Translations under genes and position numbers: made by a program
DNA from: a virus
Reading direction: 5' to 3' (one strand)
Length of the DNA: 33,535 nt
IMG/VR virus record: IMGVR_UViG_3300024346_000273
Coordinates: 1-33,535 of that record
Shown here: positions 4,474 through 27,521 of the stretch, piece after piece
How positions within the stretch are numbered: position 1 is the first letter of the stretch
Layout: every line of letters starts with the position of its first letter
The notes under the pieces: model-generated
What the model saw: only the letters and a program-made list of their open reading frames with translations
Database searches by the model: none
Told to the model about the DNA's origin: nothing

Positions 4474-6498
4474 TTAAGCTTGCAGGGCATTACGGAAGCC
4501 CCCACCATTGGAAACTGCATTCAGCACCGCCCCCAGCGTCGCGTCTTTCAGGTCATCCATACTTCCCGCCAGTTCCGCCCTCGTCACGCCGCTGGAAAAG
4601 CTCTGGTTGATCGTCACCGCCCCCAGCGTCCCGCCTGCTGCCGCCGTATTCATCCGGGGCGTCTTCATCCCGCCCCCGCCGAAGAATGACGGAGCCTGCC
4701 CATTCATCGATGGCGCAGTAAACGATCCATCAAACGATCCGATCTTCATCCCTCCCCGAATATCCCTGAGATTTCTGGCATTATATCTCTCAGCGCTCTT
4801 GTTTTGGCTAAGTGTGCGGTTGTAATCTATTCTCGCGGCTTCCCTGGCCTGGCTGGCCTCTTGAGCGGCGGCGCTTCTAGCCATCGCTGCTTGAGACGGA
4901 GACAAGTCCCCTGCCTTAAACTCCTTAAACCATTTGTCCGAGTCGATTTTGCTTTGCTTATTTAATAAAACCTCTTTTGGAGATAATCCAGCATCCCCCT
5001 GGCCTGCAGCGGGACTGCTCGTTTTCATGCTGTCGAGTGTCGCCTGAGCATCCGCACCCACCCCCTCGTCTTTTCTAGAGCCAAGGCTCTGCAGCATATC
5101 ATTCGTCTTCTTCCACCAGTCTGATGCATTCACGTATTGGACGTTGTTCATCAAATTACTGACTGCCAGGAAATTTGAGATCATCATCGAAACCCATTCC
5201 ACCGTCAGCTCTTTCAGTCCCTTTGTGGTGGCCGTGTATTGCTCCACCACCTGATCCAGCGACGCCTGCACCTTTTCCGGCATCACCTTCCATATGGCAT
5301 CAAAGGACTGGCTGAAGTCACCGTTTGCCGCCCTATTGGCCGCCATCTGCGCTTCGTAGGCCCGCGTCATTTCCTTGGTAGTGTCTACGTATCCATCCGC
5401 CACATCTTTATCCAGTTCCTTTTTTTCACGCGCCGCATTCAGTGCTTCCAGTCGCGCCGCCTGAGACGCCAGCCTTTGCTTCTCGTATCTTTCCCGGACC
5501 ACATCTCCTGCGTTTTTTTCCAAACTTACGTGCTTCATCAGAGCAGCATCCAGATCCTCCATCGAATTTTTGTAATCCGTTAATGGATTAAGCGTAAAGG
5601 GATTATCCTTAGCTGCCTCATTCCAGTCTTTCCAAACTCGCGCAAACTGGCTGACTGCCTGCACCGCCTCGGCAGCAGTAGCTACCGTTTCAACAAAATA
5701 AATTGGCCAATTCCTGATAATTTCACCCACCGCATTGGACTCATCCGCCAATTCCTTCACGGTATTAACCATGTCGATTAAGACAGGAGCAATCGCCACC
5801 GCGAGCTGGTCCTTGATGAACCCCCATCCCGTTTGCAGTTTTTCAATATTCTCCTGGGCCATCGTGGCCATGGATCGTTGGGCATCAGTCAGGTGCCCGC
5901 CAAGCTTTTCCGTGGCGGCACTCATGCTTTCAATCCCCTCCTTGCCCATGTTGATCACGTTCAAAATCTCCACCCCGCCCTTCCCGAAGAAGGACTTCGT
6001 CAGGTCAATCTTGTCCCCGGTGTTCTGGATTTCAGACAGCTTCTGAGCGATTTCGGCAAATTGCTTTTCCGGCGCGAGGTCTCGCAGGTTTTGGGCACTC
6101 AGCCCCAGCTTTAGCAGAGCCTCGTCAGCGCTTCCGCTTGCCAGATTAGCCTGCATCTTTGCCAGAGCGGACACCATCCCCTCAAGGCTACCGCCAGTCA
6201 TCTCAGCGGCAAACTTGAGGTCTTGCAGCGCATTGTAGGCAATCCCGATCTTGCTTGCCGCCTCATCCAGCGCATCGATCCGGTCCAGCCCCTCAAAGGC
6301 CAGCCCCACCACCTTTTTCACTCCTGCCATTGCCGCCCCCAGCCCAGCCACCACACTCACGCCAATAGCCGTGCCCAAAGCCACCGCCCCCACGCTCGTA
6401 GACTGCTGCGCTCCCCGTAGCCCGCTGTTGATGTCAGAAGACAGCTTGTCCGCCGTAGCCCGGAGTTGGATGGAGAGGTCTGCAATGGATTCAGCCAT
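4474..6498 (-). CDS. tape measure protein
   Basis: This is the longest tail gene (674 residues), alpha-helical throughout, with a hydrophobic stretch near residues 36-66 (VGAVALGTAIGVSVVAGLGA) and the repeated Ala/Lys/Glu-rich pattern of phage tape measure proteins, including ALDEAASKIGIAYNALQDLK and SFFGKGGVEILNVI, common in this family. The protein sets tail length and is ejected with DNA. At about 0.15 nm per residue the tail would be roughly 100 nm long. It follows the chaperone and gp10-like genes as expected. Gly/Met-rich low-complexity sequence near residues 600-630 (FFGGGGMKTPRMN) precedes the C-terminal end. Confidence 0.9.
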   Translation of the reverse strand: MAESIADLSIQLRATADKLSSDINSGLRGAQQSTSVGAVALGTAIGVSVVAGLGAAMAGVKKVVGLAFEGLDRIDALDEAASKIGIAYNALQDLKFAAEMTGGSLEGMVSALAKMQANLASGSADEALLKLGLSAQNLRDLAPEKQFAEIAQKLSEIQNTGDKIDLTKSFFGKGGVEILNVINMGKEGIESMSAATEKLGGHLTDAQRSMATMAQENIEKLQTGWGFIKDQLAVAIAPVLIDMVNTVKELADESNAVGEIIRNWPIYFVETVATAAEAVQAVSQFARVWKDWNEAAKDNPFTLNPLTDYKNSMEDLDAALMKHVSLEKNAGDVVRERYEKQRLASQAARLEALNAAREKKELDKDVADGYVDTTKEMTRAYEAQMAANRAANGDFSQSFDAIWKVMPEKVQASLDQVVEQYTATTKGLKELTVEWVSMMISNFLAVSNLMNNVQYVNASDWWKKTNDMLQSLGSRKDEGVGADAQATLDSMKTSSPAAGQGDAGLSPKEVLLNKQSKIDSDKWFKEFKAGDLSPSQAAMARSAAAQEASQAREAARIDYNRTLSQNKSAERYNARNLRDIRGGMKIGSFDGSFTAPSMNGQAPSFFGGGGMKTPRMNTAAAGGTLGAVTINQSFSSGVTRAELAGSMDDLKDATLGAVLNAVSNGGGFRNALQA

Positions 6499-19057: not shown

Positions 19058-20770
19058 ATGCCAGCCAAGCGCCACACCGCCCCGGCAGACGACCCCGCCA
19101 CCGCCTACGCCCGATCCGTCCTATCCGGTGAGACTCCAGCCGGGAAGCTCGTCAAGCTGGCCTGCCAACGGCATTTGAATGATTTGGACCGGCAGGGCAC
19201 CGCGGCTTTCCCATACGTCTGGGAGCCTGACCGTGGCGCGAACCTCGATGCCTTCTGTCTGCTGCTCCGCCAATACACCGGCGAGTGGGCCGGCCAGCCC
19301 CTCAGTCTCGCCCCCTTCCAGAAGTTCGTGGCGTATAGCATCTTTTCATGGGTCTATGCCGACAGCGGGATGCGTCGATTCAAAACCGCCGTCATGCGTG
19401 TGCCCCGGAAGAACGGCAAAACCTGTTTCGCCGCTGCCATCGCCCTTTACCTGCTGGCCCTTGATGACGAGCCGGGTGCCCAAATCTTTGCCGCCGCCAC
19501 CAAGCGGGATCAGGCCCGGCTCGTCTTCCGGGATTCCTGCACCATGCTGCGGAAGGCCCACCCCAAAGTCCGCGCCCGGTTCGTCGAAAAGGTCAGCGTG
19601 CTAGAGTTCCCGTCCACCAATTCCCGCTTTGAGCCACTAGCCGCAGACTCCGACAAGCTTGACGGCCTGAACCCCCACGCTGCCATCTGCGACGAAACAC
19701 ATGCCTGGGCGTCCCGTGATCTGTGGGATGTCCTCCAGTCAGGTATGGGTGCCCGCCGCCAGCCGCTCATGCTGGACATCTCCACCGCAGGCAATAACAC
19801 CCACTCATTCGCTTTCGAGACCCATAAGCGGGCCGAAGATGTCCTGACCGGAACACTGCACGACGAGGCATTTTTCGCGTTCATCGCCATGGCCGACCCG
19901 GAAGACATCGACCGATGGGACGATCCGGCAGTCTGGCAGAAAGCCAACCCCGGCTACCTGACGATCAAGCCCAAGCACTATTTCGAGACAGAGGTCTCCA
20001 AAGTCCGCGCCACCCCATCCGCCCTCCCCGACTTCCTGACAAAACAGCTCAACATCTGGGCCAACGTCGCAGAGCGGTGGCTCGATCCCGACGACTGGAA
20101 GAAAGGCGGCTGCGAAGGCCTGGCCGAAAAGCTAAAAGGCCGGAAATGCCACGGTGCCCTCGATCTCGCCAAGGTCAGCGACCTTTCCGCCTTTGCCCTC
20201 GTCTTTCGGCCTGACGAGGTCTTCAAAGCCATCGGCGTCAGGAAGCACGCCCTGCTCGTCTGGCACTGGTGCCCCGGCGACGACATCGCCACCCGCACCC
20301 GCGAGCACCGCGTGCCTTACGAGAGCTGGAAAAAGGCAGGCTGGATCAACGCCACCGCCGGCAACACCACCGACTTCGTCGCCCTCCGGCACGGCATCCA
20401 ACGGATCTGCGCCGACTATGAAGTCACGGATGTAGCCTTCGACCGATGGGGAAGCCTCGAAACTGTCCAGCACCTCCAAGAAGACGGGATGCAGGTCTTT
20501 GAGTTCGGCCAAGGCTACAAATCCATGGGTGCCCCCACCTCAGAGTTTGAGCGCCTCGTCAAAGGCGGCCACCTCCTGCACGATGGAAGCCCACTCCTCG
20601 CATGGGAGGCCGGCAACGTCGCCTGTGAGATGGACCCCAGCGGAGCCATCAAGCCCAACAAAAAGCGCAGCCGCGAAAAGATCGACGGCATCGTCGCCGC
20701 CGTGATGGCTCTAGGCCGGGCCATGGCCCAGGAGGAGGTAGTCGCGGCACCCACCGTCTGGGTAGCCTGA
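19058..20770 (+). CDS. terminase large subunit (Terminase_1)
   Basis: The 570-residue packaging motor has an N-terminal ATPase with Walker A RVPRKNGKT (about 114-122), Walker B AAICDETH (about 208-215) and a coupling STAGNN (242-247), then a nuclease domain with acidic residues in HGALDLAKVSDLSAFALVF (about 365-383), TDVAFDRWGS and the C-terminal REKIDGIVAAVMALGRA. All key residues expected for the Terminase_1 (PF03354-like) family can be seen. It is the last gene of the rightward unit and converges on the early genes. Confidence 0.96.
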   Translation: MPAKRHTAPADDPATAYARSVLSGETPAGKLVKLACQRHLNDLDRQGTAAFPYVWEPDRGANLDAFCLLLRQYTGEWAGQPLSLAPFQKFVAYSIFSWVYADSGMRRFKTAVMRVPRKNGKTCFAAAIALYLLALDDEPGAQIFAAATKRDQARLVFRDSCTMLRKAHPKVRARFVEKVSVLEFPSTNSRFEPLAADSDKLDGLNPHAAICDETHAWASRDLWDVLQSGMGARRQPLMLDISTAGNNTHSFAFETHKRAEDVLTGTLHDEAFFAFIAMADPEDIDRWDDPAVWQKANPGYLTIKPKHYFETEVSKVRATPSALPDFLTKQLNIWANVAERWLDPDDWKKGGCEGLAEKLKGRKCHGALDLAKVSDLSAFALVFRPDEVFKAIGVRKHALLVWHWCPGDDIATRTREHRVPYESWKKAGWINATAGNTTDFVALRHGIQRICADYEVTDVAFDRWGSLETVQHLQEDGMQVFEFGQGYKSMGAPTSEFERLVKGGHLLHDGSPLLAWEAGNVACEMDPSGAIKPNKKRSREKIDGIVAAVMALGRAMAQEEVVAAPTVWVA

Positions 20771-21882: not shown

Positions 21883-22253
21883 ATTTTTGGTGTTTGGTTG
21901 GTTGGTTGATCGTGGTTTGCAATAAACTCCCAAGTAGCCAGCAGTCGCGGGATCGTTGCCAGTCCGGCCTCAATGTCATCAGGCATCCCGTGGTTGTGCA
22001 TCTTGATCCACGTTCCATCAGAAAGTTCACCGTGCAGCTCGATCTCGTAGGCAAAATACGTGCCGTGCTGGGTTGCGGCTATTGTTACCTGCATCCCCTC
22101 CTTGCGGTGGTTGCAGGCGCATCTGGTCGGAGTCTCGAAACGCTTACAAAAGCATCTCACGTATTTGCGGAATTGGTCCTGGTATTCCTTCCAGCCTTCG
22201 GCCAGTAAAAGTGCGTAAATGGATTCGTTCATGGTTTTTTGGTTCGGGTTCAT
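21879..22253 (-). CDS. unknown protein with Cys/His cluster
   Basis: The 124 residues start MNPNQKTMNESIYALLLAEG (or at Met8). RYVRCFCKRFETPTRCACNH-like cysteine spacing (C-x-C and C-x-C-x-H, about 33-48) suggests a metal site, followed by a beta-rich region HGTYFAYEIELHGELSDG. No known family is recognised. It overlaps the helicase loader stop by 4 bases, so it is co-translated with replication genes. Confidence 0.5.
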   Translation of the reverse strand: MNPNQKTMNESIYALLLAEGWKEYQDQFRKYVRCFCKRFETPTRCACNHRKEGMQVTIAATQHGTYFAYEIELHGELSDGTWIKMHNHGMPDDIEAGLATIPRLLATWEFIANHDQPTNQTPKI

Positions 22254-22945
22254 CCCTCAAAAATAACGGAGTGCTGCACCAGCCGCCGCTCGATCGCGTC
22301 AGCCGTGCCCTGATCCACTCCCTTCCCTGCCGCGATCTTCGCCGCCAATCTCCCCGGCCCATGCTGTGCCGTCCAGCAGGTCAGCAGCAGGGAGGTGTTC
22401 CGGTGCTCCAGTAGCTCAAAAAGTTTCTCAGCGAACGCCTCCGTGAACTTCACCTCAGCCAAGTCATCAATCACCAAAAGCGGCACATTCCGCAGACCGG
22501 CCAGAGTTTTCCGCGCATCGTCCCGGTCCGCCCCATCCAGCATGGCCGCATTGAGCGCCAGAGCGCGCAGGGCGGCTCCGGTGAGCCATCGGAAGGGGAT
22601 TGCCGCAGACAGCACCATCAAGGCCATACAGTGCGTTTTCCCGCAGCCGGACGGCCCATGGATTCCTAGTCCCGTTTCACCCACCTTCGGAAGCCAGCTT
22701 GCGGCTTGCCGGAGCCGCTGCGAAACGGATTCGATTTGGGCGCACTGGTAGGCTGGCGGGACGATCTTTTCCCAGGCGTCGCGAAAGCTCTTCGCGGCCT
22801 TCGCAGTCGCCTCCTCAAGTGCACGTTTGTCATCGCAGGCTTGGCACAGGCAGGCGAGGCCGGCCAGCAGCTCACGGCCCAGGAAGATCACAGCCTCGCG
22901 GGTCACGGCAGTGCCGCAGATTGGACAGGGTGCGGTGCGGGTCAT
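22250..22945 (-). CDS. DnaC-like helicase loader ATPase with zinc finger
   Basis: The 231-residue protein from ATG 22945 begins with a zinc finger (CPICG at 7-11 and CLCQAC at 32-37), then a linker and a AAA+ core with Walker A GPSGCGKT (97-104) and Walker B LLVIDDLAEV (156-165). This layout is that of IstB/DnaC-type loaders that place the replicative helicase on the origin. It follows an O-like initiator with a 4-base overlap, so the pair is probably the lambda O/P counterpart. The frame is open to 23230, but that part overlaps the initiator in another frame. Confidence 0.85.
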   Translation of the reverse strand: MTRTAPCPICGTAVTREAVIFLGRELLAGLACLCQACDDKRALEEATAKAAKSFRDAWEKIVPPAYQCAQIESVSQRLRQAASWLPKVGETGLGIHGPSGCGKTHCMALMVLSAAIPFRWLTGAALRALALNAAMLDGADRDDARKTLAGLRNVPLLVIDDLAEVKFTEAFAEKLFELLEHRNTSLLLTCWTAQHGPGRLAAKIAAGKGVDQGTADAIERRLVQHSVIFEG

Positions 22946-23676
22946 GCTTTGGGTTTCCATTTGTCGGGTTGGAGTGGTCCGTATTGATTTTCGGTGGACG
23001 CGGCGGATGCCGGCTTGGTGAATGGCGCATACCCCAGCGTATGCCAGGACCGGACGGTGGCTTTCCAGTCCTTGATGGTCTTGCCTGCGTTCTGCCAGCC
23101 GTTGCCCTCCCACTTCCAGTAAGCCGCGGTGCCCTGCGATGGGAGGCATCCGATGGAGATGGCGAATGCCTCGACCTCCTCCGGCGTGGATGCCTTGGCG
23201 ATGTGGGTTGGCGGGGTGGCATCGCCACACTCCTTCCCTTCCATATTCCCTTCCTTTCCATGTTCCTTTCCTTTCCTTTCCTTATGGCACGCGTGGTTGT
23301 CGCGTGGGTCACGCGTGGCGCACGCGTTGGAATCCTTATCCAGTATAGGCTCCGGCAGTTCTGAAGCCCGCTCCTTGTTGTTGACCACCTGGTGGCGCGA
23401 GAACCCGGGAATCCACCCAAATTCACCCGTCTCTGTCGCGTATTTCATAACAAAACCACGCGTGGCCAACGCGTGGAGCACGCGTGAAAAGTCCAGTTTA
23501 TCGTAGGGCAGAATCTGCACCCCAAGGCGGCGAGGCTCCCACCTGAAACGCCCCTCCCGGTCAGCCGCGCACCATAGCCCGGCAAAGGCAATACGGAGCG
23601 GCAGCTTGTATTCCACCTCGGCCTCAAAGAGCCGGTCATGAGTAAAGAACTCAGGCTTGATGGTTCGGATTCTCAC
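22942..23676 (-). CDS. O-like replication initiator
   Basis: From the GTG at 23676 (overlapping the upstream stop by 4 bases) this encodes 244 residues. The N-terminal winged-helix part (RIRTIKPEFFTHDRLFEAEV, LRIAFAGLWCAADREGRFRW, PRRLGVQILPYDKLDF, GWIPGFSRHQVVNNKERASE) is typical of phage replication proteins that bind origin DNA. A basic low-complexity linker (KERKGKEHGKEGNMEGKE) leads to a DnaT/DnaD-like C-terminal region, YWKWEGNGWQNAGKTIKDWK (about 189-208). The gene contains its own iteron clusters, as lambda O does. It likely recruits the DnaC-like loader encoded next. Confidence 0.85.
   Translation of the reverse strand: MRIRTIKPEFFTHDRLFEAEVEYKLPLRIAFAGLWCAADREGRFRWEPRRLGVQILPYDKLDFSRVLHALATRGFVMKYATETGEFGWIPGFSRHQVVNNKERASELPEPILDKDSNACATRDPRDNHACHKERKGKEHGKEGNMEGKECGDATPPTHIAKASTPEEVEAFAISIGCLPSQGTAAYWKWEGNGWQNAGKTIKDWKATVRSWHTLGYAPFTKPASAASTENQYGPLQPDKWKPKA
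23288..23330. repeat. iteron cluster A, four 11-bp-spaced copies
   Basis: CACGCGTGG (23288), GTCGCGTGG (23299), CACGCGTGG (23310) and CACGCGTTG (23321) start exactly 11 bases apart. The period is not a multiple of three, so it is not due to the protein code, and it places each copy about one helical turn from the next. Confidence 0.8.
23457..23487. repeat. iteron cluster B, three 11-bp-spaced copies
   Basis: CACGCGTGG (23457), AACGCGTGG (23468) and CACGCGTGA (23479) again start exactly 11 bases apart and share the core of cluster A. The two clusters are separated by about 126 bases. Confidence 0.8.
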
Positions 23677-25874
23677 AGCAGCAAAAGTTGGGATGTCGCG
23701 TTGGCGAGGTTCTGGCTGGCCTGGTTGAAATAGGACTCCTTCAGCTCCGACCCCACAAAGCGCCGCCCCATCTGCAGGCTCTTGTAGCCCTCCGATCCGA
23801 TCCCGGTGAACGGGCTGTAAACCAGCTCCCCTGGATTCGACCACAGCGCCACCGCCCGCTCGATCACATCGAGCTGGAGAGGGCAGATGTGGCGCTCATC
23901 GTTGTTATCCCGCGCCCCGTCCCGGTTCAGCACATTCCCCTGGTCCACTGTCATCCACACCGGAGATGCCGCTTCCTGCCACCAGTCGATCGGGTAGCTG
24001 GATTTGTCCTTCGTCACCGGCACTGGGTTCTCCCCTGGCGTTTTGAAGATGAGCAAGTAGTCCGCGCACCCCACCCGGCTGTTGGTGCTGTCAGAGCAAA
24101 GGGTTTTGTAGAGCAGGCCATGGGCCTTCGTCCGCTGCATCTCCGTGACCGGGCTTTTCCAGATGCAGATCCGGCTATGGAACAGGAAGCCATGCCGCCA
24201 GAAAGCGCGGATCAACTCCCCGCTGAAGTCCTGAAACTCAATCCGCCCCGTCTTCCACTTCGTGCTCAGGAGGTCCACGCAATGCACCGCCACCTCCCGC
24301 CCCGGCATCATGATCCGTTTCATTTCAGCGATCAGGATTTCAAAGTGCTTCGTGAACTCTGACAGGTCCGCGCAATTCCCCATGTCTTGCAGATCATCCG
24401 AATAACAAAATAAATCAGCAAACGGCGGCGAGAACACCGAAAAGTGGATCGATCCATCCGGGATCGTCTTGGCCACCCGCACACAGTCCCCGTGGTGCAC
24501 TGTCCAGCCCTCGCCCGTCTTGGTTTCGATTTCCGTTTTCATTGTCAGTTTCTTAGTGGTGTTTTCCTTGAAGGCTTTGGCCGCTTGTTTCATACTGGTT
24601 TGCATTTCCTGATGTTGGGTGATTTTGCGTTGGATGGATTGGAGGATCGCCCCCTCCGTCGATGCCTGCACGATCAGCGCCCGCACCGGGTGCACCTGCC
24701 CAAAGCGGTAGCACCGCCGCAGCGCCTGGTAGAAGTCCTCGAAAGAATAGGACAGCCCCACAAAGGCCACATTCCGGCAGTGTTGGAAATTCAGGCCATA
24801 GCCAAAGATGCCCGCCTTGCTGATCAGCACCCGCGTCCCTCCGCTGATAAAGTCCAGCGGAGCGCGTTCCTTGTGGCGCGGGTTATCGCTCCCCTTCACC
24901 TCCACCGCGTCAGGGATCGCCAGCTTCAGCTCCTCGCTCTCCTCGTTGGTATTGCACCACACCATCCATTGATCCGTGCTGGAGTTCACCGCATCCGCCA
25001 GTGCCGCCACCCGCTCCGTCAGTGTCATCCGCAGCTCCTTGTGCATCGTGGTGGCTGACAGCGTAGCGTGCCGGAACAGCTGATCCTCCGGCGCTCCGTC
25101 AGCCTCATCCACTTCCACAATCCGTGTCTCCAGATTCAGCCCCGGCAGATCATAGCCGGCATCCTCGTAGCCAATATCCGAAGGCTTGGAAATGCACGCC
25201 GCCCAGCTGGCCAGCCACTTCCAGAACTCCCCCTCCGCGTGCTTCTTCAGCCGCCAGTCCCCCGTGTTGAAAGTGTCATTGATGAACCAGGTGGACAGCA
25301 TCTGCATCGGTGAGCAAATCCCCAGAAAGTCCGCGTGCTGCCCCAGCTCCGTGTAGTCGTTCGGCGATGGCGTAGCCGTGCAGCAGAGCCGGTAGGGCGT
25401 GTCCTTGAATCGCTCCGTCAGCACCCTGCGGGTCTTCCCCTGAAAGGACTTCAGGATACTGCTCTCATCCAGCACCACGCCGGCAAACTCAATCCCCTCA
25501 AAGTGCTCCAGCTTCTCATAGTTCGTGATGAATACGCCGGCCCGATCCACATCATCCCCACTGCTCACCACCTCCGCGGCGATGCCAAACTTCCGTGCCT
25601 CCGCCTCCGTCTGCCGCGCCACCGAAAGCGGCGTCAGGATCAGCACGCAGCCACCGGTATGCTGTGCCACCTGATGCGCCCACTCCAGTTGTTGGATCGT
25701 CTTGCCCAGCCCGCAGTCCTCGAAAAGCGCTGCCCTCCCCTGCCGGATCGCCCAGCCGATAACGTGCTCCTGCCATGGAAAAAGCGGGGCCGTAAAAGGC
25801 CGCGGTTCAAATCCAGACTCCGACAAAAGCCGTGACTTGGATTGGATAAATTCGTCGTAATTCAGATGTTTCAT
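23673..25874 (-). CDS. SNF2-like helicase fused to DNA methyltransferase
   Basis: One 733-residue chain carries two enzymes. The N-terminal SF2 part has Walker A EDCGLGKT (52-59), a DESS box (LDESS, 135-139), CCTATPSPND (164-173), ISKAGIFGYGLNFQ (351-364) and QALRRCYRFGQVHP (383-396), the SNF2-like motor. After a helical linker and HGDCVRVAKTIPDGSI (461-476), the C-terminal part has SPPF (482-485) and later YSPFTGIGSEGYKS (686-699), the beta-class amino-methyltransferase order with motif IV before motif I; SPPF favours cytosine-N4 or adenine-N6 methylation. No nuclease domain is seen. Its stop overlaps the initiator start, so it belongs to the replication operon; likely DNA protection or base modification. 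Confidence 0.85.
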   Translation of the reverse strand: MKHLNYDEFIQSKSRLLSESGFEPRPFTAPLFPWQEHVIGWAIRQGRAALFEDCGLGKTIQQLEWAHQVAQHTGGCVLILTPLSVARQTEAEARKFGIAAEVVSSGDDVDRAGVFITNYEKLEHFEGIEFAGVVLDESSILKSFQGKTRRVLTERFKDTPYRLCCTATPSPNDYTELGQHADFLGICSPMQMLSTWFINDTFNTGDWRLKKHAEGEFWKWLASWAACISKPSDIGYEDAGYDLPGLNLETRIVEVDEADGAPEDQLFRHATLSATTMHKELRMTLTERVAALADAVNSSTDQWMVWCNTNEESEELKLAIPDAVEVKGSDNPRHKERAPLDFISGGTRVLISKAGIFGYGLNFQHCRNVAFVGLSYSFEDFYQALRRCYRFGQVHPVRALIVQASTEGAILQSIQRKITQHQEMQTSMKQAAKAFKENTTKKLTMKTEIETKTGEGWTVHHGDCVRVAKTIPDGSIHFSVFSPPFADLFCYSDDLQDMGNCADLSEFTKHFEILIAEMKRIMMPGREVAVHCVDLLSTKWKTGRIEFQDFSGELIRAFWRHGFLFHSRICIWKSPVTEMQRTKAHGLLYKTLCSDSTNSRVGCADYLLIFKTPGENPVPVTKDKSSYPIDWWQEAASPVWMTVDQGNVLNRDGARDNNDERHICPLQLDVIERAVALWSNPGELVYSPFTGIGSEGYKSLQMGRRFVGSELKESYFNQASQNLANATSQLLLL

Positions 25875-27210: not shown

Positions 27211-27521
27211 TGGTTTAGTGCGTCCTGAATAGCATTAATGGTTTCCAGCTTGCAGCAATCACGCGGCTGGCATCGCAGCACCCGCCATCCTTGGGTCGCT
27301 GCGGCGTTTTCCTTCTCCCAGGTTTTCAACATTGCCCCCGGTCTTGTATGCCGGCCTCCTGACCAGATTCCTCCGTCGATTTCGAGGAATACTTTTCGGT
27401 CCGGCCAGGCGAAGTCCATGCGCCATTTGCGGGTCGGATGGAAACGGAACTCAGCGACCGGCGCAGGGATTCCGGCTTGGGTTAGTGCGGCAAGGAAGAT
27501 GCGGTCTTGGGCTGGCGTCAT
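27207..27521 (-). CDS. VSR/DUF559-like endonuclease
   Basis: From ATG 27521 the product is 104 residues. EFRFHPTRKWRMDFAWPDRK (about 24-43) followed by VFLEIDGGIWSGGRHTR and EKENAAATQGWRVLRC are typical of VSR-fold phage nucleases; the Asp and Glu residues in MDFAW and FLEIDGG should hold metal. Such nucleases act in repair or recombination or as resolvases. A TTG at 27548 is an alternative start. It sits directly before a methylase-like family protein with a 4-base overlap. Confidence 0.8.
   Translation of the reverse strand: MTPAQDRIFLAALTQAGIPAPVAEFRFHPTRKWRMDFAWPDRKVFLEIDGGIWSGGRHTRPGAMLKTWEKENAAATQGWRVLRCQPRDCCKLETINAIQDALNQ

Follow-up and report, generated by a model that had tools for sequence, protein, structure and literature searches.

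Candidate iteron arrays in the linker codons and the predicted recognition-helix codons of a phage replication initiator gene

Where does this virus begin the replication of its DNA, and what are the two clusters of short, evenly spaced repeats inside its initiator gene? The window analyzed here is the whole IMG/VR record (33,535 bp). The original prediction placed a candidate origin in these clusters, flanked by a DnaA-box-like sequence and a purine-rich tract. The features concerned are the following.

22942..23676, minus strand: replication initiator gene, 244 aa, with PHROG matches and no Pfam match
23347..23676, minus strand: winged-helix DNA-binding domain, codons 1-110 (AlphaFold2 [AF2] model)
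23461..23490, minus strand: alpha-3, codons 63-72, recognition helix by topology (AF2)
23456..23487, minus strand: helix array, three copies with an 11-bp period (cores 23458-23463, 23469-23474, 23480-23485)
23436..23441, minus strand: degenerate eighth copy, TCGCGT on the plus strand, in wing codons exactly two periods past the helix array
23288..23328, minus strand: linker array, four copies with an 11-bp period (cores 23289-23294, 23300-23305, 23311-23316, 23322-23327)
23230..23283, minus strand: GGAA-repeat purine tract (coding strand), candidate unwinding element directly 3' of the linker array
22250..22957, minus strand: DnaC-like helicase loader, following the initiator gene in the operon (phrog_50, E 8e-12; phrog_3277, E 2e-9; IstB_IS21)

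That the host gene of the repeats encodes a phage replication initiator is supported by residues 1-120 of its product, which match PHROG 16167 (E 5e-37) as well as further PHROGs likewise annotated “replication initiation protein.” No Pfam family was found at E ≤0.01, and a PDB sequence search with the protein returned no match. The gene starts with a GTG codon overlapping the stop codon of the upstream gene (GTGA), and the helicase-loader gene lies directly downstream. Immediately upstream, positions 23673-25874 encode a fusion of a SNF2-type helicase and an N6/N4 DNA methyltransferase. Elsewhere, the gene for the terminase large subunit (19058-20770) is on the plus strand, opposite to the minus-strand capsid and tape-measure genes.

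AF2 modeled residues 1-110 as a confident winged helix (pLDDT mostly above 95), and the linker at low confidence. The model contains helices at residues 27-37, 48-55, and 63-72 (alpha-3), a strand at 43-45, and a wing made of strands 77-80 and 85-88. Alpha-3 directly precedes the two-stranded wing and by this topology is the predicted recognition helix, which would contact DNA; in a TTCC-type relative, the corresponding helix spans residues 60-71 of the AF2 model. The top PDB fold match for both the window protein and this relative was 4pt7, “Structure of initiator,” at weak E values of 0.016 and 0.002. We take 4pt7 to belong to the pSK41 Rep protein family.

The seven ACGCGT-type copies are arranged as predicted, in clusters of four and three with an exact 11-bp spacing in both; the core at 23300 reads TCGCGT. 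Perfect ACGCGT occurs six times in the whole record, close to the 5.8 expected if copies were scattered, but all six are inside the two clusters. Likewise, CACGCGTGG with at most one mismatch was found 13 times in the window, which is not above chance (11.3 expected), with 11 of the 13 in the region of the arrays. The linker array occupies nucleotides 349-388 of the gene, within linker codons. On the coding strand the other array covers codons 64-75 and thus falls on alpha-3. The degenerate copy in the wing reads ACGCGT in two relatives (L012 and L013), and its codon 80 (GCG) has a synonymous identity of 0.87. Absence of the repeats from relatives with the same initiator would have spoken against an origin; both clusters are kept in 70 of the 74 genes that share the N-domain. 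The original prediction therefore holds in that the repeats behave as iterons of the initiator and persist in its relatives, while its DnaA box does not (see below). It overlooked that one of the two clusters falls within the predicted recognition-helix codons, a feature that sets the locus apart from lambda-type origins.

We then asked how general this arrangement is. A genome scan with the window protein as the query found no relative, while a profile scan of genomes revealed prophage relatives in many phyla. In total, 295 distinct genes from viral contigs, named phages, and prophages in genomes were collected; grouping at 60% identity of the N-domain gave 41 clusters. For each gene, the best ungapped match between the DNA of the N-domain and that of the linker was compared with the matches obtained after synonymous-codon permutation of the N-domain, which keeps the peptide. 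The helix/linker match was significant (p ≤0.02) in 129 of the 295 genes, with ~6 expected, and 127 of these 129 matches fall on alpha-3 (40-120 nt 5' of the HQ codons), a zone that took ~45% of the best matches of shuffled sequences. Because the genes are related by descent, gene counts overstate independence, and the cluster and permutation figures are safer: 20 of 41 clusters have at least one gene that passes, and 14 of the 41 unselected cluster representatives pass by themselves. The matches in L341, L051, and L040 are off-position or weak and may be due to chance. In about half of the 41 clusters the helix copy is absent; the enterobacterial and Pseudomonas branches (L042 and L044 clusters) lack both this copy and the constraint peak described below.

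The repeat itself differs among groups, the types being ACGCGT, TTCCAAGAA, TTCGTCGA/TCGACGA, CGATTAATC/GATAAATC, CGGTAGTA, and TCAGTGA, and the helix and linker copies change together between groups. Across the 41 unselected representatives, a gene's own helix/linker pair scored 11.90, while permuted pairs scored 7.97 ± 0.34 with a maximum of 9.62 (10,000 permutations). Some of these matches are between opposite strands, and a shared peptide therefore cannot be their source. Periodicity at 11 and 22 nt was seen in the helix codons (z 2.1 and 1.6) and the linkers (1.7 and 1.5), as opposed to ~0.2 in the rest of the N-domain. Since 11 nt corresponds to 3.67 codons, or about one turn of an alpha-helix, an array of 11-bp iterons can be written through a helix, a form of dual coding in which the period of the site fits the turn of the protein. 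The two arrays are about 115-160 bp apart in most genes. Helical phasing of this spacing was considered and dropped; spacings in 78 genes bunch near integral turns, but with the 25 distinct spacings the resultant amounts to only 0.27.

The helix array is under selection at the DNA level. In 67 dereplicated genes of the ACGCGT group, synonymous identity over codons 64-75 is 0.79 (0.29 expected), reaching 86-100% at codons 63-66, 68, 69, 72, and 73 (19-52% expected), while the flanks are near expectation (codons 1-61, 0.40 versus 0.36; codons 77-100, 0.49 versus 0.41). In eight helix-array clusters, namely, the ACGCGT group and seven others, most of them with other iterons, synonymous constraint peaks on or beside alpha-3. 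No synonymous excess was detected in L042, L044, L341, and L040, in which helix matches are missing or nearly so.

These data bear on an improbable reading in which the linker array alone is the functional origin and the helix array a leftover of a duplication, the linker having been seeded by helix-coding DNA or the helix by linker DNA. Consistently with such a duplication, the two copies of several groups match in a common reading frame, with an alpha-3-like linker peptide, as with DDSSIVRRTIDELS and DSSSPRRSIDDQS of L251. However, a relic would have drifted, and in the eight clusters the helix array is frozen at its synonymous sites, in lineages with saturation elsewhere; the frames and the spacings between the arrays also vary.

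Iteron type appears to be a property of the N-domain. Among close IMG/VR relatives the same arrays recur in both positions, also where the C-terminal domain is unrelated (L015 and L024), and L027, with a related N-domain and an unrelated C-domain, keeps the same iteron in the linker array only. In contrast, L028, whose C-domain is related (53%) and whose N-domain is distant (32%), has another iteron. Taken together, these comparisons indicate that iteron type follows the N-domain and not the C-domain. The L040 and L341 clusters have ACGCGT linker arrays but a different alpha-3 and no helix array, so that specificity may depend on more than the alpha-3 sequence, and some branches do without the helix array.

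An origin inside an initiator gene is of a known kind; here it would come with a new iteron. Phage lambda gene O likewise carries iterons in midgene, from nt 349 on, the very position of the window's linker array, and lambda shares the adjacent helicase-loader gene; its downstream strand-opening tract has a candidate counterpart in the GGAA tract of the window. The lambda-type layout is found in the window, with tandem putative iterons in the initiator gene between the DNA-binding and C-terminal parts. The lambda iterons, however, are 18-19 bp long and about 20-24 bp apart, compared with the 11-bp period here, and gene O has no N-domain copy of its iteron (best match 8.0, null 8.05). No homology of the initiator to lambda O was found by Pfam (E ≤0.01), and its PHROG matches are to other initiator families.

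In architecture, the staphylococcal pSK41 Rep is closest, with a winged helix and boxes in linker codons. The winged-helix N-domain of this RepA_N protein binds four Rep boxes in its own linker codons, and N-domain and origin are swapped as a module (PMC5703833). The repeats of the window have the same position, in linker codons between the winged-helix N-terminal domain and the C-terminal domain, but the pSK41 repeats are of 23 bp rather than of 11-bp period, and a copy is absent from the N-domain of pSK41 rep (10.5, against a null mean of 12.1). Pfam and PDB sequence searches gave no match that would place the initiator in RepA_N, and the fold similarity is weak. SPP1 oriL, within gene 38, is comparable by its published description, with direct repeats and an AT-rich unwinding element inside the initiator gene (PMC6316719). 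In the Obolenskvirus phages Brutus and Scipio, midgene repeats of the replication-protein gene have already been proposed as the origin (PMC10888812). Obolenskvirus phage NL (L049) is a member of the present family and has the helix-codon copy, a feature unmentioned in the parts of the Brutus and Scipio account available to us. A search of open-licence papers found no report of an array in helix codons. It is the array in the predicted recognition-helix codons that appears to be new.

The purine-rich asymmetric tract beside the linker array is real, as position 23230 begins the most purine/pyrimidine-asymmetric 50-mer of the window. With 58% AT against a mean of 42%, the tract ranks in the top 3.5% of windows but is not classically AT-rich. 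Among the 41 clusters, the tract 3' of the array is of the purine type in 24 and of the TGATTC type in 8, and neither type was found in any gene of the N-domain control. The two types, GGAA/GGGAA purine repeats and 7-bp TGATTCC repeats, are nearly exclusive, occurring together in 1 of 70 TGATTC genes. The DnaA-box-like TTATCCAGT did not survive scrutiny: it differs from TTATNCACA at two positions, and the window has 155 such two-mismatch sites (168 expected). The same 9-mer recurs at 5408 and is common only to near-identical relatives. No DnaA boxes beyond chance or conserved, as a DnaA-dependent origin would have, were found in the window and the relatives. GC skew was uninformative as an origin marker, its cumulative minimum being at 27374, away from the candidate.

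It could be argued that the arrays are operators for autoregulation, with the initiator acting as a transcription roadblock, and not an origin. Both are inside the initiator/loader operon, and a bound array just within the gene could block RNA polymerase. We regard this as quite improbable, since the linker array occupies the place that proven iterons have in lambda, and next to it comes a tract that serves in lambda, in AT-rich form, as the unwinding region (PMC7466680). The lambda-like position and tract are nevertheless compatible with an added regulatory role of the helix array. Selection on mRNA structure, through hairpins formed by palindromic repeats, is very improbable, because although the predicted folding of helix regions is slightly more stable than that of their synonymous shuffles (mean z -1.2), hairpins need neither identity with the linker array nor an 11-bp period, folding z values are near -0.5 in L257 and L247 despite the same array pattern, and no Rfam family matches within 22200-24200.

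We therefore consider it probable that the repeats are iterons of the initiator encoded by the same gene, that the linker array and the GGAA tract form the origin, and that the helix array is a second cluster of these sites, maintained by selection. In this model the N-domain of the initiator, with its winged helix, would bind the repeats of its own gene, probably as dimers, on dyad-symmetric 11-bp units one DNA turn apart. The initiator would assemble on the linker array, open the adjoining GGAA tract, and recruit the DnaC-like loader and the host helicase to it. The helix array, within about 150 bp, most likely provides additional docking or control; it may serve in a DNA loop, in handcuffing, as a promoter-proximal roadblock, or in the co-inheritance of reader and target. 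It is tempting, though somewhat less than an even bet, to go further and regard the recognition-helix DNA as an array of the initiator's own sites, kept by selection as the working second half of a bipartite origin that acts by looping or handcuffing, a layout not described before. If this is true, reader and target are one physical segment, and new replicon specificities could arise and spread as a unit. The textbook origin-in-initiator layout would be sharpened, in that the predicted DNA-reading helix is encoded by copies of its own target. The arrays offer a computable way to predict the likely recognition sites of many uncharacterized phage initiators, and the repeat groups form a natural series for the co-evolution of initiator and origin specificity.

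Several linkers of the wider family and of pSK41 have features of their own. In the TRIKPEFW group (L251, L259, L274, and similar genes), the linker encodes, in the same frame, a peptide similar to that of alpha-3, as though the linker had arisen from helix-coding DNA. In pSK41 rep (L374:13205-14164), the 23-bp Rep boxes are closely followed on the 3' side by 15-bp TGATACTGATTTTAT repeats; the phage family likewise has a second repeat tract. Inspection of translations by eye suggests an HNH-like insert in the initiator linker of Pseudomonas phage Sew_P27 (L044) and a GIY-YIG/T5orf172-like insert in that of Myxococcus phage Mx8 (p19; L048); these endonuclease-like inserts occupy the linker site where relatives keep the putative origin.
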